From Nguyenibacter vanlangensis (GTDB taxonomy: Bacteria; Pseudomonadota; Alphaproteobacteria; Acetobacterales; Acetobacteraceae): 64,000 nucleotides of DNA. The notes under the pieces are model-generated. The model was not told the origin of the DNA. It did no database searches and saw nothing but the letters and a program-made list of their open reading frames with translations. The DNA lies in assembly GCF_038719015.1 (NCBI RefSeq), contig NZ_CP152276.1:4171501-4235500 (forward strand), in the 5' to 3' direction. The position numbers were made by a program, and so were the translations under genes. Positions 39,662 to 51,718 of this stretch are shown here, piece by piece. Position 1 is the first letter of the stretch. Each line of letters opens with the position of its first letter.

Positions 39662-39730
39662 CGGCAATGGACTCTGCCGGGCCTCATGTTTTCGGGGTCG
39701 AACCGCCCCTGTGGGCTGATGATTCCTACC
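39662..39730 (+). promoter_or_regulatory. Fluoride riboswitch (crcB motif)
   Basis: The 5' half (GGCAATGG, then CTCTGCC) and the 3' half (AACCGCC, then GGCTGATGATTCCTACC at 39714-39730) match the conserved positions of the crcB-motif fluoride aptamer in order and spacing. It lies in the leader of the CLC-type gene, whose ATG is 127 bp downstream. A T-rich run at 39783-39787 could belong to an expression platform. A TTGACG -35-like hexamer is at 39627-39632. Confidence 0.85.
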
Positions 39731-39856
39731 TCGCCTATTGGCACCAAGGGGTGGAGTCCGAATCGAGTCATGCCGAGCCTCTCTTTTTCGTCGTGCAAGA
39801 ATAACGAGGCCGCCGCCTCGCGTGAGCGCGCGCTTATTCATATTCCACGGACATAT

Positions 39857-41203
39857 ATGACGGCCTCTTTTCACCATCTGGTCGCCGGATGGTCTGCGAC
39901 CCTGCGCGCGACCCTCAAATGGGCCTGCCTGCTGGTACCCATGGCGGCAATCGTCGGCAGCCTCTGCGCCCTGTTCCTTTGGCTGCTGGATGAGGTGACG
40001 ACATACCGCGTCACGCACTCATCGCTGCTCTTTCTTTTGCCACTGGCGGGTATCGCGACCGGGCTCCTCTATCATTGGTTCGGCCGGTCGGCCGAAGGCG
40101 GCAACAATCTGATCGTCGACCAGATCCACGAGCCCGGAGGCGGCGTGCCGCTCCGTATGGCGCCCCTGGTCCTGGTCAGCACCGTCATCAGCCACCTGTT
40201 CGGCGCCTCCGTCGGGCGCGAGGGGACGGCGGTGCAGATCGGCGGCAGCATCGCCGGCGGCTTCGTGCGCCTGTTCCGGCTGGAAGACCGGGCGGTGCGG
40301 ATTCTCCTGATGTCCGGCATCGCCGCCGGATTCGGCGCCGTTTTCGGCACCCCCATCGCCGGCGCGGTGTTCGGGCTGGAGGTGCTGGCCGTCGGCCGGA
40401 TCGAATACATGGCACTCTTGCCCGTAGCTGTCGCCGCGATCATCGCCGACTGGACCTGCCATCGCTGGGGCATTCATCACGTCCCCTATCATCTTGGCTT
40501 CGCGGGTTTTCCCGACACCACGGGCGACGCGTTCCACACGGACCCGCTCCTGCTCGCCAAGGTCGGCCTCGCCGCCATTGCCTTCGGCCTGGCAAGCCTG
40601 GCGTTCGCCGAGGGCGTACACCGGCTGGCCCCTGTCTTCCGCACCCTCTGCCCCATCGCCTGGCTGCGCCCGGCGATCGGCGGCGTTCTGACCATCGTCC
40701 TCGTCTTCCTTGCCGGCACAAGGGATTATCTCGGCCTCGGCGTCGTCCCCGCCGCACCCGGCGGCGGCGCCATCGTCAGCTTCTTCGGAGCCGGCGATTT
40801 CACCTGGAGCTGGCTGTGGAAGCTGGTCTTCACCGTGACGGCGCTCGCCACCGGCTACAAGGGGGGTGAAGTCACGCCCCTCTTCTTCATCGGCGCGGCG
40901 CTCGGCCACACGCTCGCGGGCCTGCTGCACGCGCCGGTCGACCTGATGGCCGCGGTCGGTTTCGTCGCCGTCTTCGCCGGCGCGGCCAACACGCCCTTGG
41001 CCTGTACGCTGATGGGCGTGGAGTTGTTCGGTGCCGCCGATACCGTCTATCTGGCGGTCGGCTGCTTCATCGCCTATCTCTGCTCCGGCCATTCGGGGAT
41101 CTATCTCTCCCAGCGCATCGGCGTCCCCAAGATCCGTCATCCGTTGATCGCCGGCGGCATGGCCTTGCGGCACGCGCGGACCCTCCTTCAGAACAGAAAA
41201 TAG
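39857..41203 (+). CDS. CLC-family antiporter, probable fluoride/proton (CLC-F) type
   Basis: 448-aa polytopic protein. The CLC gating-glutamate region is [20 protein letters not shown]. The usual GSGIP selectivity motif of chloride CLCs is absent; the corresponding stretch reads [18 protein letters not shown], as in the CLC-F (eriC-F) subgroup. The later ion-pathway motif reads [19 protein letters not shown] instead of GGIFAP. The upstream fluoride riboswitch strongly supports fluoride export with proton uptake. Start ATG 39857 is chosen; the frame is open upstream through the riboswitch. Its 3' end overlaps the convergent urease-like gene by 16 bp. Confidence 0.88.
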
Positions 41204-42810
41204 CGTTGCCGCATCGGCAGGGTTTCGGCGACCTCGCCCGACAGCAGCACGCCGTCGGCCCGGATGGCCTGCGTTTCGGCGTCGATCTCGATCTCCGGCA
41301 TGGCGCTGTTCAGCACCATGTCCTTCTTGCTGATGCCGCCCCTTGTGTTCGAAACCACGCGCATCTGCCGCCGCAATTCCAGCCGTTCGGCGATCCCGTC
41401 CGCCAACGCGGCCTGCGAGACGAAGGTCACGCAGGCCGCCGCCAGGCTGCTGCCCAACCCGCCGAACATCGGCCGCGCCGCCAGCGGCTGCACGGGCGGG
41501 ATCGCGCCATGCGCATCGCCCGCCATCGCCTGCATGATCGTCCCGCCCTTGATCACCAGGTCGGGCTTCACGCCGAAGAATGCCGGAGTCCAGATCACCA
41601 GGTCCGCCAGCTTGCCGCGCGCGACCGATCCGATTTCGTCCGCCATGCCGTGGGCGATGGCCGGGTTGATGGTATATTTCGCGACATAGCGCCGCACGCG
41701 CAGGTTGTCGTCCGTCCGGTCGCCCGGCAGCGTCCCGCGCAATATCTTCATCCGATGCGCCGTCTGCCAGGTCCGCAGCACGGCGTCGCCTACCCGCCCC
41801 AGCCCTTGGCTGTCCGACGCCATCATCGACAGCGCCCCCATATCATGCAGCATCTCGGCCGCGACCCGCGCGCCGAGCCAGCCATGCTGCATGTTCGACG
41901 GCGGAATGTTCATCGGCAGCATGTTCGGCAGCGCCGCCAGGCGGAACATCTCGGGCCCGCGCGCGCCCAGTATCGGCAGAACCGTCCGGCCGCGTGCCGC
42001 GGCGATCATGTCCTCGACCGGCTTTCCGTCGCGGTCCCCGCCGCCGTCCTCCATGTCGGCGGCACTCAGCACCGGAACATCCATCCGTTCGGCCACCGAC
42101 AGGCAGGTCTGCAGGGCGGCGGCCGTGATCCCGCCTTCGCCATGCAGCATCAGGCCGGCGGCGCCGCCCCGCACCATTTCCTCCAGAGCCGCGGGACGCA
42201 GCGCATCGCCCCGCCCGGTCAGCGCCAGGTTCACCGGCAGCGCCTCCGCCGCCTGGATCATCCGCGCCAGGTGCCACGGTCCGGGCGTGCCGGGCGCCGC
42301 CATCGTGCCCGTGGCCGGCCCGGTACCGCCGCCGATCATCGTGGTCACGCCCGCCGCCAGCGCGTCCTCGGCCTGTCGCGGACCGACCAGGTGGATCGGC
42401 GATTCGATCCCGCCCGCAGTGACGATGCGCCCGCCGGCGGCGATGATTTCCGTCCCCGGCCCGACCAGGATATCGACCCCGCCCTGCTGGTCCGGATTGC
42501 CCGCCCTGCCGATCGCGCCGATACGCCCTTCGACAATGCCGATATCCGCCTTGACGATTCCCCAATGGTCGATGATCACCGCATTGGTGATCACCGTATC
42601 GACCGCGCCTTCGGCATTGGTGCGCTGCGACCGGCCGATGGCGGCATGTCCCGTCCGCCCATGACCAGGCCGGGCTTTTTCGCCACGATGCGTCAGGTCA
42701 TGCTCCACCCGGACCAGCAGCGCGGTATCGGCCAGCTTCAGCGTGTCGCCCGCGATCGGGCCGGCCGTGCCGTCCCGCCGCCCCTCCGCGCGCGCCGGTA
42801 TCGAGGTCAT
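41188..42810 (-). CDS. Urease alpha-subunit-like protein lacking most nickel ligands (probable pseudoenzyme)
   Basis: Intact 540-aa frame, UreC-like end to end: [56 protein letters not shown] and the terminal [10 protein letters not shown]. The metal site is gone: HIH is P138-I-H140, the carbamylated Lys (GLKxHEDWG) is Met221, the HxDTLNESG segment reads [10 protein letters not shown] (His replaced by Ser249), and the HTEGAGGGHAPD loop with its His is replaced. About 30 residues including the catalytic flap (CHHLDP) are deleted. Asp333 (SDSQ) and His223 remain. GAGGAG lies before ATG 42810. It follows ureA on the same strand, with no ureB or accessory genes. Confidence 0.85.
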
Positions 42811-42856
42811 CTCTGTGCTCCTCTCGCCACGCCGCGCCATAATGGGCGGCGCGGCA

Positions 42857-43159
42857 TCAGCGGATCGGGGTGTGAACGCGCACCGCTCTCGGGCCGTCGG
42901 GAAACAGCGCATCGACCTCGATGACCGGGATCATCTCGGCGACGCCGTCCATCACCTGCGCGCGGGTCAGGACCTGCCTGCCCGCCTGCGCCAGTTCGTC
43001 CAGGCCGCGTCCATCACGCGCGCCCTCGACCACCGCCTCGGTGATCAGGGCCACGGCTTCGGGATAATTCAGCCGCACCCCCCGCTCCAGGCGCCGGCGC
43101 GCCACCTGGGCCGCCACGGCAATCAGCAACCCGTCCTTCTCATGCGGGGTCAGATACAC
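42857..43159 (-). CDS. ureA: Urease gamma subunit UreA
   Basis: 100-aa protein matching urease gamma over its full length: [67 protein letters not shown] and the C-terminal VHTPIR. Gamma subunits normally assemble with beta and alpha into the (alpha-beta-gamma)3 enzyme. Here the beta gene is missing, and the alpha-like gene 46 bp downstream has lost its active site. A functional urease from this locus is therefore unlikely. Confidence 0.92.
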
Positions 43160-43265: not shown

Positions 43266-43284
43266 ATGTTATCAATGATAACAT
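43266..43284. promoter_or_regulatory. 19-bp palindrome between ureA and the NnrU-like gene
   Basis: ATGTTATC (43266-43273) and GATAACAT (43277-43284) form perfect 8-bp arms with a 3-bp centre, in the middle of the 211-bp divergent intergenic region. It has the form of a dimeric regulator operator and could serve both directions. It does not match the FNR/NnrR consensus. Confidence 0.5.
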
Positions 43285-43370: not shown

Positions 43371-44051
43371 ATGACCGCGCTGATCATCACCGCCCTCATC
43401 TGGGTCGGGCTGCATATCGGGCTGGCCGGCACGCGCCTGCGCGACCCCATCGCCCGCCGGCTTGGCGACCAGGGATTTCGCACCCTGTTCTCGGTCCTTT
43501 CGCTGGCTGCCCTCTTCGTCCTGGCGCGCAGCTACGCGGCCGCGCCCTATCGCGGCCTGTGGGTGGCGCCGGACTGGCTGCGCTGGCTGCTGGTGCTGGC
43601 CATGCTGCCCGCGTTCGCGCTGTTCGCCGGCGCGGTCCTGTCGCGCAACCCCACGTCGCTGGGCCCGCCGATCGGCCCGGAATGGCAGCCGCGCGGCATG
43701 GTGCGCATCACCCGCCACCCCATGCTCTGCAGTTTCGCGCTGTGGGCGCTGGTCCATATCATCGGCACGGGCAACGCGGCGTCGCTCATCTTCTTCGGCG
43801 CGTTCGGCGTGACGGCGCTGGCGGGCACGACGTCGATCGACGCCAAGCTGGCCCGGCGGCAGCCGGTCCTCTGGCGCACCCTGGCGGCCGGCACCTCCAT
43901 CGTCCCATTCGGCGCCATCCTGGCCGGGCGCAACCATTTCGCGCCGCGCGAACTGGGCTGGTCCGTCCCGATCCTGGCCCTGGGGCTCTGGGGCGGAATG
44001 CTGATCCTGCACCCGCTGCTGTTCGGCATGTCCCCCCTGCCGCATGTCTGA
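43371..44051 (+). CDS. NnrU-family membrane protein
   Basis: 226-aa inner-membrane protein with six or so hydrophobic segments. Characteristic NnrU features are LIWVGLHIGLAGTRLRDPI at the N terminus, RNPTSLGPPIGPEW, and MVRITRHPMLCSFALWALVH with the conserved RHP motif also seen in isoprenylcysteine methyltransferase-like proteins. NnrU was named for a link to nitric oxide reductase expression in rhizobia, but no denitrification genes are nearby. AGAGGGA precedes ATG 43371. Confidence 0.85.
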   Translation: MTALIITALIWVGLHIGLAGTRLRDPIARRLGDQGFRTLFSVLSLAALFVLARSYAAAPYRGLWVAPDWLRWLLVLAMLPAFALFAGAVLSRNPTSLGPPIGPEWQPRGMVRITRHPMLCSFALWALVHIIGTGNAASLIFFGAFGVTALAGTTSIDAKLARRQPVLWRTLAAGTSIVPFGAILAGRNHFAPRELGWSVPILALGLWGGMLILHPLLFGMSPLPHV

Positions 44052-44135: not shown

Positions 44136-45212
44136 TCACTCCGACGGCACGTGATCGCGATAGCGGTCCCAGTGGCGCAGGATTTCCGCGACCACCGGCG
44201 CGCCCGCGCGTTCATTGTTGTCGAAGGCGAGCGCCTGCCCGGGGCCTTCATCCCCCATCGAATGCGTCACGTCCATGCCCGGCGGCGGCATCGAAAAATT
44301 GCTGGCCGAACGCAGCACCATGATGCGGTTCGCATCGACGAAGCCCAGGCGCGCCAGGGTGCGCATCTCACGCTGATAGGTCTGGCTCTCCTCGTTCGTC
44401 ATCACGAACAGGCCCCGGCCCCTGGTCCACAGCTTCACCCAGTTCTCCGCCCATTGCGTGCGCGGCGCACCGTGCCAGTACCGTTCGGCGCCCAGCGTCT
44501 CGCCCATCAGGACGAAAGGCGCCTTTTGCGCCTGCGGAAATCCCGTCCAGGCCGCGCGCCGCGCCGCGACCGCCGGGTCGTCCGCCAGCGCGGCGGTGCG
44601 GCTCAGCGCATAGGCCCAGCGCGCCAGCCCCTGATTCAGCGGATAGGCCTTGCTCAGTTCCGCGACATCGGTGACCGACCCGTAATGGTTCGGATTCTCC
44701 GGCAGCGTGTCGGGACGCGACGCGCCGATCGCATACAGGCCATAGGGCCAGCCTTTCGGAACGGTCCGGTCGTCGATCTCGCGCAGCGCGTCGCCATCCA
44801 CCACCCAGCGCGCCCAGGCGACGCTGCCGACCGACGCCGCATGCGGATCGACACCGGATATTCCGGTAAACAGCCAGTAAGTTTTATGAAAATCGAAACG
44901 CGGATCCAGCACGAACGCCGCCAGGTCCGTCACGCCATGCCGCAGCACGATCCCGTACAGCCCGTCCGCGTTCCGCCGCACCACGTCCGGCGCCCCGCGC
45001 ACCGGAACGGTCTGGTCCAGATGCTCGCGCTCGACCCAGTCCTGATACTCGCCCGGCGCGTCGCCGCGATCCGCGCCGTTTTCCCAATTGGCAACCACGA
45101 CCATTTTCACGTCCTCGGCCGCCCGCGCCGTCGGGACAAGCCCGATGGCCAGCAGGCAAGCCAGGCCGGACACTGCGCCGCGCCCCGCACGCCAACGATC
45201 GTTCCTTCTCAT
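44136..45212 (-). CDS. Purine nucleoside permease (NUP) family protein
   Basis: 358-aa secreted protein with a signal peptide (MRRNDRWRAGRGAVSGLACL, then LAIGLVPTARAA). The mature part matches the NUP family: VKMVVVANWENGADRGDAPG, YQDWVEREHLDQTV, YGIVLRHGVTDLAAFVLDPR, YWLFTGISGVDPHAASVGSV, and near the end MRTLARLGFVDANRIMVLRS. In fungi NUP is implicated in nucleoside uptake; bacterial members are periplasmic and less understood. ATG 45212 has GGAG at 45219-45222, and this ribosome site overlaps the left att repeat of the adjacent element. The element thus separates this gene from its original upstream DNA. Confidence 0.87.
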   Translation of the reverse strand: MRRNDRWRAGRGAVSGLACLLAIGLVPTARAAEDVKMVVVANWENGADRGDAPGEYQDWVEREHLDQTVPVRGAPDVVRRNADGLYGIVLRHGVTDLAAFVLDPRFDFHKTYWLFTGISGVDPHAASVGSVAWARWVVDGDALREIDDRTVPKGWPYGLYAIGASRPDTLPENPNHYGSVTDVAELSKAYPLNQGLARWAYALSRTAALADDPAVAARRAAWTGFPQAQKAPFVLMGETLGAERYWHGAPRTQWAENWVKLWTRGRGLFVMTNEESQTYQREMRTLARLGFVDANRIMVLRSASNFSMPPPGMDVTHSMGDEGPGQALAFDNNERAGAPVVAEILRHWDRYRDHVPSE

Positions 45213-45219
45213 GTCGGAC

Positions 45220-45234
45220 TCCAACATATCCCCC
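45220..45234. repeat. attL core repeat
   Basis: TCCAACATATCCCCC, identical to 51704-51718. A second partial copy (CCAACATAT) follows at 45233-45241, inside the element. The repeat contains the ribosome-binding sequence of the permease gene on the minus strand. Confidence 0.8.
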
Positions 45235-45368
45235 AACATATACCAAATAAGACACTGATAAAACACGATAAAATTTCGTTGCGGATCGTGTAACGTACAC
45301 ATGCGCATACACTTAGACGGCGACCGGAGATGAACGACTCCGGCCCAATCCGAAGGCAGAGAAGCGGG

Positions 45369-45680
45369 TCACTTTTCCAAGACACCTTCGATGATCGGAG
45401 GTTCCCCCGGCATCGGTACCCCGGCGAGGGCATGGAGCTGCTCGTCGGTCATCTCTTCCAGCCGCAGAACTGGACCCGTATCCGCTGCCGCGACCGCATA
45501 CGCTGGCAGCATCTTATGGAGCAGGGCCATAAAGAGGGCAGGGTCGCGCCTCGCCTGCTCCACAAGCCATGCCTGGCCGCCTAGCTCATCCAGCGCCCCC
45601 AGCACCATGCCCTTGAGCGCCGCTGTCGCCTTGTTCGGGATGCCCTTGCGTGAGCCGCCGTTCAGTTTGTCGTGTTTCAT
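45369..45680 (-). CDS. Short phage-type protein at the left end of the element
   Basis: 103 aa, starting MKHDKLNGGSRKGIPNKATA. The basic N-terminal KGxPNKAT motif followed by a helical region (LGALDELGGQAWLVEQARRD) ending in LP is seen in short phage proteins often encoded beside terminase genes. Function is not established. In satellites a terminase small-subunit-like gene near one end would redirect packaging, but this protein may be too short and I cannot show that role. The C-terminal half is acidic. Confidence 0.7.
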   Translation of the reverse strand: MKHDKLNGGSRKGIPNKATAALKGMVLGALDELGGQAWLVEQARRDPALFMALLHKMLPAYAVAAADTGPVLRLEEMTDEQLHALAGVPMPGEPPIIEGVLEK

Positions 45681-45728
45681 CGCGGCACCAGGGCAACCGA
45701 GGTCACTTTGCCCATCATGTTGCCTAAT

Positions 45729-46205
45729 TCAGTTGATGGTGGGCGGACAACATTCCTCGGCACGCTCCAAATCCTGCTGCCGTAGATACTCAGCGTAGAT
45801 CAGATACGGCCAGCCCAGTTCGTCAGGGGCGTCGGCGGCGTCCCCTTTGAAGGCGTAACAGAACGCGTGAGGGACGAAAGGTTGCTCATCGGCCTTCCAA
45901 AGCATCAGCATCATGCGTCCGGGCTGTTCAGCATCACCGTCATGGAATAATGCGAGGTAGCAATCCGGATAACGGCGCGCGAGGCTGCCAGCATCGGCAG
46001 CAACGTCGCGCAGCCATAGGGACGCCCTTTGCGATTTGAGAACAGCCCCAATTTTGCGCATATTAGTCCACTTCTGCAAAGCCTGTGTTGTGGTGTAACA
46101 ACACATATTGCCAAGCTGCTGGCGTGACAGTCCTCGCCCGTAGTCCGGCGGTGCCTCGAACTTGAGGGGGAAGGCGCAGAAATCCTCTGCGGTTTGCAGT
46201 CTCAT
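45729..46205 (-). CDS. Unknown protein of the element
   Basis: 158 aa, no recognised family. It begins MRLQTAEDFCAFPLKFEAPP and has several Cys residues, including NMCCYTTTQALQKW and a C-terminal ECCPPTIN. The middle section (RYPDCYLALFHDGD, GRMMLMLWKADE) looks like a small mixed alpha/beta domain. Its start overlaps the stop of the coiled-coil gene upstream (ATGA 46202-46205), so it is in the same operon. Confidence 0.7.
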   Translation of the reverse strand: MRLQTAEDFCAFPLKFEAPPDYGRGLSRQQLGNMCCYTTTQALQKWTNMRKIGAVLKSQRASLWLRDVAADAGSLARRYPDCYLALFHDGDAEQPGRMMLMLWKADEQPFVPHAFCYAFKGDAADAPDELGWPYLIYAEYLRQQDLERAEECCPPTIN

Positions 46206-46624
46206 CGGTTTCCTCCTGCAAGGGTTTCCCGCCTCAAGGCCGCATATGCCGCCTGGTCACGCTGCTGTCTGGCTTCGGCGCTGCGCTGCTTGTCCCCCTC
46301 AACCATCGACGCCTTATTGGGCCGCTCCATAAATGGACCGAAAGCGCCCCTCGGTGAGCCGATCCATTTGGTGATCGTGCGGCCGGTGATGTCCTTGACT
46401 ACCTCGGGCGCGACCTTCCCCTGGGCCGTCAGAGAGGCCACCAGCATTTCCCGCCGCTCCTCCAACTTGCGCTGTTCGACGAGCTTCAGGGCTGCCTTCA
46501 TCTGGCGATCCTGCTCGGCCTTCGCAGCCACTATGGCCGCCTTCTCCTTCAGGGCTCTTTGTTCCTCAGCGAATCTCGCTTGCCTGAGCATCTCTTCGGC
46601 CTGCGCCACCGATATCCCACTCAT
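46202..46624 (-). CDS. Charged coiled-coil protein of the element
   Basis: 140 aa, rich in Glu, Ala, Lys and Arg. Residues about 5-65 (SVAQAEEMLRQARFAEEQRA onward) are predicted by eye to form a continuous amphipathic helix or coiled coil. The C-terminal part is basic, with WIGSPRGAFGPFMERPNK. No family is recognised. It overlaps the RHH gene upstream by ATGA at 46621-46624 and the next gene downstream, so three genes are translationally chained. Confidence 0.7.
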   Translation of the reverse strand: MSGISVAQAEEMLRQARFAEEQRALKEKAAIVAAKAEQDRQMKAALKLVEQRKLEERREMLVASLTAQGKVAPEVVKDITGRTITKWIGSPRGAFGPFMERPNKASMVEGDKQRSAEARQQRDQAAYAALRRETLAGGNR

Positions 46625-46794
46625 GCTTTCATCTCCTTCTCTTCATAGCGATTCTTGATGACTACAACCGCCCGTTTCAGAATCGTGCGGATGACATTCG
46701 ACCGGCTCCCCCATTCCATAGCGGCAATGAGATCGAGGTCAGTGACAAGGGATTCCGGCAGTTTAAGAGAAATAGCTTTGGTTTTCTCGGCCAT
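46621..46794 (-). CDS. 57-aa ribbon-helix-helix DNA-binding protein
   Basis: A short frame reading MAEKTKAISLKLPESLVTDL, then DLIAAMEWGSRSNVIRTILK. This is the classic CopG/Arc-type pattern: an N-terminal beta strand (KAISLKLPE), helix, then the G-S-R-S-N-V-I-R turn and second helix. Such proteins repress their own operons and control plasmid or phage copy number. It is first in its operon, immediately beside the iteron cluster, and the following gene's ATG overlaps its stop. It is probably the regulator of this transcript or of replication. Confidence 0.85.
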   Translation of the reverse strand: MAEKTKAISLKLPESLVTDLDLIAAMEWGSRSNVIRTILKRAVVVIKNRYEEKEMKA

Positions 46795-46925
46795 TATATG
46801 TGTCTCCGTTTCATGACGACCTATAAGGATCGATATCGTTGTTATACTAACTGTGTATTTCTTTCACATCAAGAAGATTTTCTGTGATGTTTAAAACAAT
46901 ATTAGAAATGTAAACAACAAACTTC

Positions 46926-47068
46926 TATTCCAACCAATTCCAACTCTTTCCAACCTCTTTGGAATGGTTGGAATTGCGCATTCCAAGAAAGCAAAACGCT
47001 CTTTGGTTAAGTCATTGATTTCATTACGTTCCAAGATTCCAACCCCTAGGGGGTTGGAAGTTGGAATT
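46926..47068. other. Iteron cluster, candidate replication origin
   Basis: At least ten TTCCAA/TTGGAA sites in 140 bp. Three direct TTCCAAC copies are at exactly 10-bp spacing (46928, 46938, 46948), inverted TTGGAAT at 46959 and 46968, direct copies at 46981, 47029 and 47037, inverted at 47054 and 47061. A 10-bp-arm hairpin, TTCCAACCCC-TAG-GGGGTTGGAA, spans 47037-47059. The flanking DNA (46.80-46.93 kb) is strikingly AT-rich. It lies 21 bp after the primase-helicase stop, as expected for an origin bound by that protein. Confidence 0.75.
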
Positions 47069-47088
47069 CGAACCCTATGTGGGCCGAC

Positions 47089-49023
47089 CTAATGTGGCAT
47101 TATCCTGTTGGCCATCTCTTCGCCCTTACGCTGTAAGGCAACCTTGTCCTTCAGCCAGTACACCGACGAACTCGACATTCCGGTTGCCGCGATAACCTCT
47201 TTGGGCGTTCTTCCCGCCTCAAGCATATCGATGGCAAGCTCTTTCGCCGTTTTGACGATTGGGGAGGTCTGCCAGGCCACGCCATCCCCCTTCGTCTCGA
47301 GCCGCGCCTCAAACGGCGCCGCCTCGTCCCCCATGAAGCCGCGCGCCTTCTCGAAGTACCAATGGAATTTTGCCCCCTCTGCGGCCTCGTAGCCGTCAGG
47401 GCGGCGCAGGGCTATGACGGTATCGGCCACGTCCTCGCGACGGCTAGTGCCGCGCTGCTGCCCGGCCTTGCCAGCGTGGTGCACTAATAGGGACGAGATG
47501 CCCCGGCGACGCAGCGACAAGAGCATATCCTGGGATAGCTGCCAGTCATCAGCATCATTTTCCTTGCTACGGAACAGGCTGCTTATGTTGTCAAACACCA
47601 CCATCGATACGTGTTGCGCGAGGTCCTCAATCCATTCGCGGCCTTCGGCTGAGGCTGGGTCCGGCAGACCATCACGGTAAAGGCCGTTGGGCAGAAATCT
47701 GAAATACGCATCGTCGGGAAGGATTGCCCCCGACCCAATGACCACCTTCCTATATCGCTCTTGCAGGTCCGCCGCCGCCATTTCGCCGTCAAGGTAAAGA
47801 ACCCGGCGTGGTGCGGGCGCTGTGCCTTTCAGCGCGCTTGACCCCGACGCTACGGCGTAGGCGATTGACAGGGCTGCCCAGGTCTTCCCGATGCCACGCG
47901 GTGCATACAGCATCGCAATCCCTTCCGCCGGAAGGTAAGGATCGAGCAGCAGCGCGCGCGGAGGAATCTCCTTGCGCAAGAAGTCTGCCCCCGTAATCGG
48001 GACAGGAATCACCTTGGGAATATCAGGCTGAGATGCCCCTGTTCTCTTTGCCGTCTGTAAGATGTGTTTTCGAGCCCTCTCGGCCTGACGCATCGCGGCG
48101 GCTATGCCGCCCTGTTCAATGCAATGGGCCGAGATCGGCAGCGACGGGTTGGACAGTACACTTGCTATCTGTTCGTCGCTGTAGAATTGCCTGACCATCT
48201 CACACGCGACACCATAGACGCGCGATGACCGATCCCCTTTCGCCGGGTCCGCTGCATCGGGGTCCTCTATCATCCGCCTCAGCTTGGCGCTTGGCGGTGG
48301 GTCAAGGTAGTCCGGTCCGGCACGGGATACCGTTACCCCAGCGGAGGGGGACGCAGGTGCCTGGGCCTCTCGCGGCAGCGCTATCGGTTGAGCATCGCGG
48401 TTATGCACAAGCAGCGACGCCATCGCCTTATTGCGACCGCGCTGCCGCTTCTTCCCCGCGTTGTCGAGATGGTTGACCGTGCCGGGCAGCCGCATCACCC
48501 GGTCGATGTTGTGGCACGCGCGGTCCCCGCCATACTGCTCGGCGAGGGCGCGGTTATTGGTCTCAACCCAACCGCCGACCTTAATGTCGTCGGCATCTCT
48601 TGTCGGGTCGATCAGCCAGAAGGCTTGCAGCCCGCCGCCTGAGTCGATGACGAAGCCTGGGGGCACCTTCGCAGAGCAAAGACTTTCGCGCGTGGCGTTC
48701 TTGTCCCAATCTGCGACGTTTGGGTCTATGTCAACGTGAAGGAAGCGAGCCGCCACGATGTCGGCCTTGCTTGTCTTCCTATGGAGGCCCTCCTGCGTGA
48801 CGTTGACCGACCAATACACGTTCATGCCAGCGGTGTTTTGATCCGCCGCCCAGCGTGTGGCGGCTTCCGCATCACCGCCGAACCAGCGCCCCAGCGGAGG
48901 GGACCACTGGCACCCATCACCTGGGGCAGCGAAAAGCTGAATAGAATCCTTAACGCAGTCGCGGAGGAACGACTCGATAGCTTCCGCATCAGGAGCCAAA
49001 GAATCAGTGTTGAGCGTCAACAT
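47089..49023 (-). CDS. Primase-helicase replication protein of the element
   Basis: 644-aa protein. The N-terminal part resembles the RepB-like/archaeo-eukaryotic primase domain: ARFLHVDIDPNVADWD (acidic catalytic pair) and PPGFVIDSGGGLQAFWLID, then CHNIDRVMRLPGTVNHLDN. A RecA/KaiC-type ATPase (AAA_25, RepA-like) follows, with Walker A MLYAPRGIGKTWAALSIAYA near residue 375 and Walker B SMVVFDNISSLF, then LLVHHAGKAGQQRGTSRRED. The C terminus (ELAIDMLEAGRTPKEVIAAT) looks like an HTH that could bind the adjacent iterons. This domain set is typical of satellite pri-rep proteins and small integrative plasmids. Confidence 0.88.
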   Translation of the reverse strand: MLTLNTDSLAPDAEAIESFLRDCVKDSIQLFAAPGDGCQWSPPLGRWFGGDAEAATRWAADQNTAGMNVYWSVNVTQEGLHRKTSKADIVAARFLHVDIDPNVADWDKNATRESLCSAKVPPGFVIDSGGGLQAFWLIDPTRDADDIKVGGWVETNNRALAEQYGGDRACHNIDRVMRLPGTVNHLDNAGKKRQRGRNKAMASLLVHNRDAQPIALPREAQAPASPSAGVTVSRAGPDYLDPPPSAKLRRMIEDPDAADPAKGDRSSRVYGVACEMVRQFYSDEQIASVLSNPSLPISAHCIEQGGIAAAMRQAERARKHILQTAKRTGASQPDIPKVIPVPITGADFLRKEIPPRALLLDPYLPAEGIAMLYAPRGIGKTWAALSIAYAVASGSSALKGTAPAPRRVLYLDGEMAAADLQERYRKVVIGSGAILPDDAYFRFLPNGLYRDGLPDPASAEGREWIEDLAQHVSMVVFDNISSLFRSKENDADDWQLSQDMLLSLRRRGISSLLVHHAGKAGQQRGTSRREDVADTVIALRRPDGYEAAEGAKFHWYFEKARGFMGDEAAPFEARLETKGDGVAWQTSPIVKTAKELAIDMLEAGRTPKEVIAATGMSSSSVYWLKDKVALQRKGEEMANRIMPH

Positions 49024-49135
49024 TTATAGAAAACCACAAAAAAAGAGTTGTGAAAAACAACCCTTCTTGGTAGGTTCAATTCAGCAAGTGTCCTCCAAAC
49101 TTTGCTGCTTTGGCCCTACAAGACTGAGTTGCCTG

Positions 49136-49164
49136 AACCCCGTCAGCTAGCCACTGACGGGGTT
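49136..49164. terminator. Hairpin between the AlpA-like and primase genes
   Basis: AACCCCGTCAG (49136-49146) pairs perfectly with 49154-49164 around CTAGCCA. A short T-run (TTTCGCGTTT) follows on the + strand only, so it may act mainly as a structured boundary for the minus-strand transcript of the AlpA-like gene. Confidence 0.55.
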
Positions 49165-49185
49165 TCGCGTTTCAGGCGGCATGAC

Positions 49186-49431
49186 CTACGATGGGGCCTG
49201 CCATGAGGTAGGAACCTCAACACTTGGCGCGGCGCGATATGCCGCCCAGGGGCTCGCCGCAGGAGGGAGGTTCTCCGCAAAGCGCTTCAAGCTCCCGGCG
49301 GGGACAACGGTCACGCCGCCGAGCTTGCGGGCCTCGAGCTTCCCTTCTTTGACCAGCTTCCAAAAAGTGGTCGGTTTGATCCGAAGTAAATCGCAGCATT
49401 CCTTGGTCCTGTAGACGAGTGGTTCAAGCAT
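49186..49431 (-). CDS. AlpA/excisionase-like HTH protein
   Basis: 81 aa. YRTKECCDLLRIKPTTFWKL followed by VKEGKLEARKLGGVTVVPAG is the MerR-like winged HTH of the HTH_17/AlpA/Xis group. In P4 and PICI elements AlpA-type proteins activate integrase or act as excision factors. The C-terminal 30 residues are Ala/Pro-rich. It lies between the integrase side and the replication gene. Confidence 0.85.
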   Translation of the reverse strand: MLEPLVYRTKECCDLLRIKPTTFWKLVKEGKLEARKLGGVTVVPAGSLKRFAENLPPAASPWAAYRAAPSVEVPTSWQAPS

Positions 49432-49526
49432 TGCGTCGCTCTCCTATGTAATGTCTTTTGTCAATACACACAGAAATGCGAATTGCTCTGCTTCGTCAAC
49501 GATGTACTTATGGAGAAAAATATCGG

Positions 49527-50138
49527 CTATTGCAGTTTTTTCTCCATACGTGCGATGGCCTCCCTGGCTTGATTCTCGGCGCTGGCCTTGACCCCGAAAA
49601 TGCCGAATAGCTTGGTCACGAAGTCATAGAACGGGCCATATGGCTCGCTTGTGTCCTCCCCGGCCGGCCTTGTCCCCATGGTTGGCTTGGTGCCAGTGTG
49701 CAGCATGAACACCTGATAGATTTCGTCTGTGAAGTATGCCGCAGCGTCATTTCTCGGCCTGCCCCGTCCAGCGTGGGCAGGGGGCGGACGAAGCGCGATC
49801 AGCAAGGAGGCAAGCTCTTGCTCAACATGTCGCCTCAATATCATTGCCGGGTCGTCTGCGGGCATCGCCTTCAATGCTTTCTGCAATTCTAGGGCAGCAT
49901 CGCGGACCGCCTGGACCTTTTTGCTATCTGCTTTGCTGGGTGACAGTATCTTGCTGGTTGATGAGTCCTTTCTGTGTGGCGCAACCATTATTAAATGTTG
50001 CGTGTTGGCCGTCACGAAGTCTAGATAGTGAGATGAAATTTTTTTTATTTCGAATTCAATCTTGGATAATAGTTCATTATCAGAATCCGCTTGCGCGGAC
50101 ACTTCGGAATTTGATACGCTTTCCTTGAGCTCGGCCAT
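49527..50138 (-). CDS. Unknown protein of the element
   Basis: 203 aa, unrecognised. A polar N-terminal helix region (ELLSKIEFEIKKISSHYLDF) and DAALELQKALKAMPADDPAM are followed by RHVEQELASLLIALRPPPAH, a short basic GRGRPRNDAAAYFTDEIYQV stretch and a C-terminal TKLFGIFGVKASAENQ. The first third has lower GC at third positions than the rest, so base composition is mixed. It is 130 bp downstream of the integrase terminator region on the same strand. Function cannot be inferred. Confidence 0.7.
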   Translation of the reverse strand: MAELKESVSNSEVSAQADSDNELLSKIEFEIKKISSHYLDFVTANTQHLIMVAPHRKDSSTSKILSPSKADSKKVQAVRDAALELQKALKAMPADDPAMILRRHVEQELASLLIALRPPPAHAGRGRPRNDAAAYFTDEIYQVFMLHTGTKPTMGTRPAGEDTSEPYGPFYDFVTKLFGIFGVKASAENQAREAIARMEKKLQ

Positions 50139-50170
50139 GAGTGTTCCTCTCTAAGACGGCGAAAACTTGT

Positions 50171-50206
50171 GCCGGACGGTGACGCCCACCGTCCGGCTCT
50201 TTTTTT
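50171..50206. terminator. Intrinsic terminator between the integrase and the 203-aa gene
   Basis: GCCGGACGGTG (50171-50181) pairs with CACCGTCCGGC (50187-50197), loop ACGCC, then seven T residues at 50200-50206 on the + strand. On the minus strand the same stem follows the integrase stop and is preceded by an A-run and followed by a weak T-run (GTTTTC). It could therefore end the integrase transcript, although its stronger polarity is for the + strand. Confidence 0.7.
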
Positions 50207-50255
50207 GTATTTACCCTTCTGGCGCGAATTGCGGGGGCTGGGGGCCGGTCCACGC

Positions 50256-51545
50256 CTATCCCCGTCCTTCCCGAGCGGGGACGCGTTTTACCCGCCTGGC
50301 GCGCGGTTTCACGGCTGCAACAGGGCCGGTTGCGTAGTCAGCCCAATCCTGCATTAGGGGACGCCGCCTCTCCACAAGGAGGGACCGGGCATATGCTGAA
50401 TCGACCTTGTCCTTGTTTACGTGCGCCAGGGCAATCTTGCGCAGTTCGCTGGGATAGCTGGTCTTTTCTTCCGCCCAATCGGAAAAGGTGGACCGCATGC
50501 CGTGCACGGTATACGCACCAGCGCCGGCGGTCCCCAGGGCTTGGGATAGAGCGACATCAGTCAGGGCTCTGCCCGTCGAACGGCTGGGGAACACAAGCCG
50601 GTCAGGCTTGTTTCCCAGCAGAGCTACCTTAGTCAGAATCTCGATGGCGGCATCAGACAGCGGGGCGCAGTGCTCTTGACCTTGATTCTTCCGCCCCTTC
50701 ATGCGCTCGGCCGGAATGGTCCAGGTCTTCTTGTCCAAGTCGATTTCGCCCCACTTTGCTCCCCTGACTTCGCTGGAGCGAAGGGCAGTCAGCACTAAGA
50801 AGCGCAACGCCAACGCCGCCATGCCATCGCTCTCGGCCAGCTTGGACATGACAAGGGGCAGATCAGCCCAGGGGATGGCGGCGTGGTGCGACACTTTGCG
50901 GATCGCCCCAGGTGCGGGATAGACGTTTTGTAGGTGGCCCTTCCAGCGGGCCGGGTTCTCGCCCTCTCGCATGTGGAGAGATTTGGCGTAATCCAGCACG
51001 ATCTCGATGCGATTTCGGACGTTGGACGCGGTCGCCGTCTTCTCATGCCATATGGGATCGAGCACCTGCCGCACATGATCCGTGGTTATGGCGTTTACAG
51101 GCTTATCGCCCATGATGGGGTGAACGTACTTTTCCAGCGTGGCAGGCCACTGCGCCGTGTGCCTCGCGTTCTTCCACCCGGCCTTTTTCGCCTCGATATA
51201 CTGCCCGGCCACAATGCGAAACGTGGTGTCACGTTCAATCTGTGCGGCGCGCCTGGCTGCCCTGCGTTCCTCGATAGGGTCTTTGCCCTCGCGGAGCTGG
51301 CGGCGGGCTGCCAGGACCATCTCACGGGCCTCTTTTAGCCCGATCTCGGGATACGACCCCAACCCATGCCAGCGGACACCATAGCGATGTTCCCATGACA
51401 CGCTATTCGCGCCGACTTGCAGATATAATGCTCCGCCGAGACACTTGCGAACGCGCTTTTTCGTCCCCGAGACCTTCGCCCTGATGTCTTTGATCGACTT
51501 CCCGAGTTCGAGGTTTGTCCAATTAGTCTTTGGCTGTCGCCCGCG
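50256..51545 (-). CDS. P4-type tyrosine integrase
   Basis: About 429 aa with ATG 51545 (MRGRQPKTNW); the frame extends upstream. The N-terminal arm-binding domain contains GALYLQVGANSVSWEHRYGV and GLGSYPEIGLKEAREMVLAA, typical of the P4/Sf6 integrase group. A SAM-like core-binding domain follows. Catalytic residues: Arg in LTALRSSEVRGAKW, HxxR in VHGMRSTFSDWAEE, His in ALAHVNKDKVDS, and Tyr in AYARSLL. It lies at the right end of the element with attR 160 bp beyond its start, as expected for a site-specific integrating element. Confidence 0.93.
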   Translation of the reverse strand, partial: RGRQPKTNWTNLELGKSIKDIRAKVSGTKKRVRKCLGGALYLQVGANSVSWEHRYGVRWHGLGSYPEIGLKEAREMVLAARRQLREGKDPIEERRAARRAAQIERDTTFRIVAGQYIEAKKAGWKNARHTAQWPATLEKYVHPIMGDKPVNAITTDHVRQVLDPIWHEKTATASNVRNRIEIVLDYAKSLHMREGENPARWKGHLQNVYPAPGAIRKVSHHAAIPWADLPLVMSKLAESDGMAALALRFLVLTALRSSEVRGAKWGEIDLDKKTWTIPAERMKGRKNQGQEHCAPLSDAAIEILTKVALLGNKPDRLVFPSRSTGRALTDVALSQALGTAGAGAYTVHGMRSTFSDWAEEKTSYPSELRKIALAHVNKDKVDSAYARSLLVERRRPLMQDWADYATGPVAAVKPRARRVKRVPAREGRG

Positions 51546-51703
51546 CATGGCTGTCCCTGATATACTCCTACATACGGACATACATATAAAATGCGACCAA
51601 ACGCAAGTCGATCCGAACGAAAACGAACGGATGATCTTATTATCTACTGATATTGCTTGGTTTTTATGGGAAGAAATGTAGACGAGCGTTCGTATGTTTG
51701 TAT

Positions 51704-51718
51704 TCCAACATATCCCCC
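51704..51718. repeat. attR core repeat
   Basis: TCCAACATATCCCCC, identical to attL at 45220-45234. It lies 159 bp outside the integrase start codon. No tRNA sequence is seen at either copy. Confidence 0.8.

Follow-up and report, generated by a model that had tools for sequence, protein, structure and literature searches.

Divergent urease structural genes without accessory genes of their own are known from Helicobacter, whose iron urease UreA2B2 is enzymatically active and retains the metal ligands. The urease alpha subunit belongs to the same amidohydrolase superfamily as the pseudo-dihydroorotase (pDHO). In class A2 aspartate transcarbamoylases (ATCases), pDHO has lost the metal ligands and kept the fold, and the inactive dihydroorotase subunit of the Pseudomonas ATCase, itself without metal ligands, is needed for activity and assembly (PMC7053772). 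Here, we analyzed a 64,000-nucleotide stretch of Nguyenibacter vanlangensis DNA (contig NZ_CP152276.1, positions 4,171,501 to 4,235,500; referred to as the window), part of a single-contig 4.75-Mb genome, which carries a pair of genes encoding a UreA-like and a UreC-like protein. The pair is real, both reading frames are intact, and the active site of the UreC-like protein is lost.

Compared with UreA and UreC of Acetobacteraceae (e.g., Gluconacetobacter johannae and Gluconobacter), the pair shows full-length homology, the same domain order, the same predicted fold, and ureA placed before ureC. Unlike the urease of these bacteria, it occurs without any UreB, UreE, UreF, or UreG that we could find, and four of the six nickel ligands and the catalytic flap are gone. 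Nor does the UreC-like protein keep the metal ligands as Helicobacter UreA2B2 does. It resembles pDHO in being an amidohydrolase-barrel relative that has lost the metal ligands and, by prediction, kept the fold; pDHO has a known active partner enzyme, whereas the only visible partner of the UreC-like protein is the UreA-like protein, and the pair is not known to accompany an active enzyme.

The gene pair and its reading frames

The features of the pair are as follows.

41188..42810, minus strand: UreC-like gene (540 aa) with an intact frame; the product is predicted to have the urease alpha fold and lacks the metal site and flap
41860..42213, minus strand: middle segment of the UreC-like gene, approximately residues 200 to 317, carrying Met221, Ala250, Leu281, and the flap deletion
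42811..42856, minus strand: spacer of 46 nt between the two genes, where the canonical order puts ureB; a hairpin, then the ribosome-binding site (RBS) GAGAGGAG
42857..43159, minus strand: UreA-like gene, 100 aa, GTG start, RBS AAGAGGA upstream

A preliminary description of the window, made from the sequence alone, had placed the pair at these coordinates with an intact 540-aa UreC-like frame, and both points were confirmed. The UreC-like protein passed the Pfam cut-offs of PF00449 (118.1 bits; cut-off, 23) and PF01979 (126.3 bits; cut-off, 25). It fell below the cut-off of the urease equivalog TIGR01792 (564.1 versus 680 bits) and passed only the broader subfamily model NF009686 (606.3 versus 354 bits), while the UreA-like protein passed PF00547 (129.3 versus 23.9 bits) and NF009712 (141.1 versus 123 bits). 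Judged by eye, an RBS precedes both starts; the UreC-like open reading frame could begin at 42912, but a good RBS stands before the ATG at 42810. GC content at third codon positions is 0.867 and 0.851 in the two genes, and the GC pattern across codon positions is intact. Between the two genes, positions 42805 to 42865 form a strong hairpin (minimum free energy, -30.3 kcal/mol; z, -4.0) directly before the RBS of the UreC-like gene. A ureB remnant at this place was considered and dropped, the 46-nt spacer being too short for a notable one.

Loss of the active site in the UreC-like protein

Two alignments were used to evaluate the active site. The first set the UreC-like protein against 109 different canonical UreC proteins from fetched loci; the second comprised 142 long UreC proteins, including the UreC-like protein, all retrieved by similarity to it. 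Ligand positions follow the Klebsiella aerogenes urease numbering. In both alignments, four of six nickel ligands are lost: H134 is replaced by Pro138, the carbamylated lysine K217 by Met221, H246 by Ala250, and H272 by Leu281. H136 (His140) and D360 (Asp333) are kept. At the other key positions, H219 (His223) and R336 (Arg315) are retained and D221 is replaced by Glu225, while the catalytic flap is deleted in both alignments, taking C319 and H320 with it. Ureases otherwise hold this site tightly: in the set of 142, only the UreC-like protein and P0260, which has an alignment gap at H272, depart from the canonical residues, and the other 140 match at all 13 key positions.

The alignment check suggested in the preliminary description, made here with canonical UreC proteins, bore out its claims that HIH has become PIH (Pro138), that the carbamylated lysine is now Met221, and that the flap is deleted. 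The residue aligned with the lost histidine of HSDTLNESG turned out to be Ala250, not Ser249 as had been proposed. The description had further held that only Asp333 and His223 remain; both are indeed kept, but so is His140.

The length changes relative to canonical UreC leave the frame intact. We considered a compensated frameshift behind the lost motifs and rejected it because, in a three-frame test, the middle segment resembled canonical UreC clearly in one frame only. In a structure model of the UreC-like protein, the pocket loops 253 to 262, 282 to 284, 302 to 312, and 334 to 337 scored under 50. The urease alpha fold is predicted to be kept.

The UreA-like protein and the missing partners

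The UreA-like protein had been regarded as standard. It is not: of the 37 residues invariant in canonical UreA, 30 are kept and 7 are changed, compared with at most 2 changed in any of 95 canonical UreA proteins. Another allele of it, P0121, is 96% identical, lies on a 1,309-bp contig, and belongs to a cluster of four; its existence suggests that the UreA-like protein, at least, is present in one more source.

No match to the UreB family (PF00699) or to the UreF family was found anywhere in the genome, and UreG is represented by a weak relative below the cut-off. Likewise, when the whole urease operon of genome G206 served as a DNA query against the genome, nothing separate matched ureB, ureF, or ureG, and ureE gave a single 37-base match. 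Near 2.81 Mb (2810740 to 2812107, minus strand), the same chromosome carries the relic of another, canonical urease operon. Here, a complete 273-aa frame matches the ureD of G206 (74% in DNA), and a deletion has fused the first part of ureA to the middle portion of a canonical ureC, which then ends abruptly; this ureC part is 91% identical in DNA to that of G206 over 412 bases. The ureD frame of the relic is the only maturation gene found in the genome. To the earlier claim that the pair lacks beta and accessory genes must be added this separate relic with its complete ureD frame. Since UreB and UreF matches are absent and UreG is below its cut-off, the genome shows no working urease that could lend partners to the pair. 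Apart from a 24-base match, neither the relic nor the pair was found in a same-species assembly, G209 (87% complete; 1,310 contigs). On contig C66 of that assembly, the place of the relic seems to be occupied by approximately 6.6 kb of other DNA, which marks it as a variable site.

Relatives and distribution

In a library of approximately 5.8 billion proteins, the nearest relatives of the UreC-like protein are canonical ureases with 55 to 59% identity (120 listed of 8,000 scored). A scan of the family found some match in 135 of 200 genomes. Among the matches listed, those outside its own genome end at or before query residue 305 or start at residue 313 or later, that is, they break at the flap, and they are at most 67% identical per piece. 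In the genus, 4 of 14 genomes gave a match, namely, its own and three with a canonical ureC; one of these (G123) encodes a UreC identical to P0041 of G. johannae DSM 13595. The G. johannae UreC is 88% and 99% identical to the other two canonical UreC proteins of the genus, 85% to that of Zymomonas, and 66 to 68% to those of two clostridia, versus 57% to the UreC-like protein. In a tree built by a quick method without the active-site columns, no supported neighbor joins the UreC-like protein (P0001), and its end branch is long, at 1.22 approximately 10-fold the median of 0.12.

In a plasmid collection, 119 records matched, all with 60 to 80% identity, and among the 20 of them listed, no feature names suggested a dead pair. 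Species-representative contigs contained 246 stretches encoding a relative; 80 were kept, the best with 58% identity. The preliminary description had proposed looking for the same dead pair in other Acetobacteraceae, and among the matches listed nothing beyond the pair's own 90% clusters came up. Among the titles and abstract openings listed from the open-licence literature on urease, a pseudo-urease was likewise not found.

Selection on the UreC-like and UreA-like genes

Across 226 invariant sites, the UreC-like protein keeps 137, with 65 changed and 24 deleted. The losses are clustered: 53 of the 75 sites at reference residues 201 to 360, the active-site region, are lost, versus 36 of 151 elsewhere (Fisher P = 2e-11), and residues 401 to 440 of UreC keep all 17 of theirs. 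Constraint in the UreC-like protein is region-specific and appears to be left on the scaffold.

Selection was further evaluated with a purpose-written codon model (10 genes, 532 codons, two tree topologies). The ratio of nonsynonymous to synonymous substitution rates (dN/dS, or omega) on the UreC-like branch is 0.247, compared to a background of 0.048, with a dS of approximately 0.9. By segment, omega is 0.23 in the N-terminal (background, 0.052), 0.41 in the middle (0.021), and 0.18 in the C-terminal part (0.060). Each value is below 1, with twice the log-likelihood difference (2ΔlnL) being 28.8, 11.7, and 35.7, respectively; these tests, which fix a single segment at omega 1, apply to the first tree. 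The second topology gave 0.28 overall and 0.24, 0.45, and 0.23 by segment. When the gene is modeled as functional at first and uniformly neutral afterward, the fit is poorer on both trees (2ΔlnL, 25.1 and 20.7; 2 degrees of freedom [df]). On the UreA-like branch, omega is 0.40 and exceeds the background (2ΔlnL, 9.3).

As controls, five branches were fitted with 9 genes and 568 codons without the UreC-like protein, and their omega ranged from 0.011 to 0.169. The middle segment stands clear of these controls, with a 19-fold rise over background versus at most 4.4-fold. The N-terminal segment is less clear (4.5-fold versus at most 2.1-fold), and the C-terminal segment, at 3.0-fold, behaves like control L033 (3.2-fold), which makes it about as constrained as one living control branch.

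A proposed retained scaffold and its alternatives

With modest confidence, close to an even chance, we favor the reading that a pseudo-urease scaffold has been retained, rather than that the gene is decaying. A kept non-urease role for the pair is plausible because omega is below 1 in three segments, the neutral-phase model fits worse, and the losses are clustered at the active site. The preliminary description had suggested that the pair may have been kept for such a role; a dead UreC kept in frame is supported, several tests count against simple neutral drift in the UreC-like gene, and the role itself is only plausible.

We propose that a proteobacterial urease, probably one like those of Acetobacteraceae, supplied the UreA and UreC subunits from which the pair descends. 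The pair locus lacks UreB and the nickel-loading genes, and in-frame changes would have dismantled the nickel pocket together with the mobile flap and the substrate loops. The rest of UreC, comprising the N-terminal part, the barrel strands, and the C-terminal half, would have remained under purifying selection. The UreC-like and UreA-like proteins may still assemble into an oligomer without metal, acting as a scaffold or binding a ligand on the model of the inactive dihydroorotase subunits of the same fold superfamily; expression, mutual binding, and any function are all inferred. In its full form, that is, a nickel-free complex derived from UreA and UreC without UreB, kept for a scaffold or ligand-binding role in a host whose canonical urease operon was deleted, the proposal is tentative, and we put it somewhat below an even chance. 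If it is true, the urease fold can be useful without nickel and the scaffold outlives the active site, and the pair offers a natural test separating the parts of UreC that serve assembly from those that serve catalysis.

Several observations weigh against a retained scaffold. No match of its kind turned up in the other 13 genomes of the genus, among them one of the same species that is 87% complete. When the degenerate segment was searched in the 5.8-billion-protein library, only its own 90% cluster, with six members, stood out; the 22 other proteins matching this segment are at most 39% identical there, and all keep the key residues, one gap excepted. P0121, the sole other UreA-like allele seen, has 4 differences in 100 residues, and these all fall inside residues 52 to 61. 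The structure model was built from an alignment of canonical ureases and is biased toward them. In addition, two of the five control branches also differ from the background (2ΔlnL, 20.5 and 37.7; 3 df); the codon model is therefore imperfect, the sizes of likelihood differences should not be over-read, and such a departure is not special to the UreC-like gene. Finally, dN/dS, which had been put forward earlier as a check and points to constraint on the UreC-like gene (omega of approximately 0.25), is indistinguishable from 1 for the UreA-like gene (2ΔlnL, 0.9), for which neutrality is not rejected.

Slow decay is a strong rival, to which we give a considerable probability, if clearly a minority one. 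It holds that an inactive ureAC remnant without ureB and accessory genes is drifting with an open frame, that high GC content makes stop codons rare, and that the apparent constraint is a legacy of earlier functional evolution. The occurrence in a single lineage, a UreA-like omega indistinguishable from 1, the loss by deletion of the canonical operon in this genome, and the variation of nearby genes between species all fit it. Because the DNA is GC-rich, missing stop codons are weak evidence: a neutral simulation with substitutions only left the frame open in approximately 5 to 7% of cases at a dS of 0.19 and in 2 to 4% at 0.257. Against it stand an omega below 1 in every segment of the UreC-like gene, the poorer fit of a uniform neutral phase, the concentration of invariant-site losses near the active site, length changes that keep the frame, and an intact codon-position GC pattern and intact RBSs. 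If slow decay is nevertheless the answer, the locus cleanly illustrates for how long a frame can remain open in GC-rich DNA.

It is unlikely that the pocket was instead rebuilt into a new enzyme, perhaps binding one metal through His140, Asp333, and neighboring residues, or none, and tied to the nucleoside or nitrogen metabolism of the neighboring genes; the pocket has lost the first HxH ligand and the bridging lysine as well as the two other histidines, its loops are of low confidence in the structure model, and an omega below 1 in the middle segment gives no average sign of positive selection. Very improbable is an artefact, in which misalignment, sequencing error, or compensated frameshifts mimic lost ligands: although aligning the middle segment is difficult and the DNA-level alignment covers mainly the flanks, the similarity lies in one frame, the ligand losses agree across two alignments, and errors of base calling fall far short of the approximately 40% divergence seen across 540 codons of a single-contig assembly.

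Genomic surroundings of the pair

The pair is flanked by the following genes.

39686..41203, plus strand: ClC-type chloride channel, convergent neighbor (family search)
43371..44051, plus strand: NnrU-family protein, divergent neighbor; start inferred
44136..45308, minus strand: purine nucleoside permease (NUP) family protein (family search)

The divergent promoter region between the UreA-like and NnrU genes contains a 19-bp palindrome, ATGTTATCAWTGATAACAT, at 43266..43284, a possible operator. Even when up to two mismatches are allowed, the genome contains no second copy, and the idea of a regulon was dropped on that count.

A probable integrative element of approximately 6.5 kb lies at 45220 to 51718 and comprises a tyrosine integrase (50256 to 51581) and a RepB-primase/AAA protein, with a GC content below that of its surroundings. 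A 15-bp direct repeat, TCCAACATATCCCCC, occurs at 45220, a position in the 5' part of the NUP gene, and at 51704; it is the sole repeat of at least 13 bases between the two ranges searched and probably marks the ends of the integrase/primase element. The pair as cargo of this element is not favored, as it lies outside the repeats, to one side. It sits within a wider block, from approximately 37.04 to 51.89 kb of the window, whose edges are those of the DNA matches to G202 and G203, which have approximately 0.9 kb instead. The NUP gene also has an 83% identical DNA stretch elsewhere on the chromosome, at 2147587 to 2148576.
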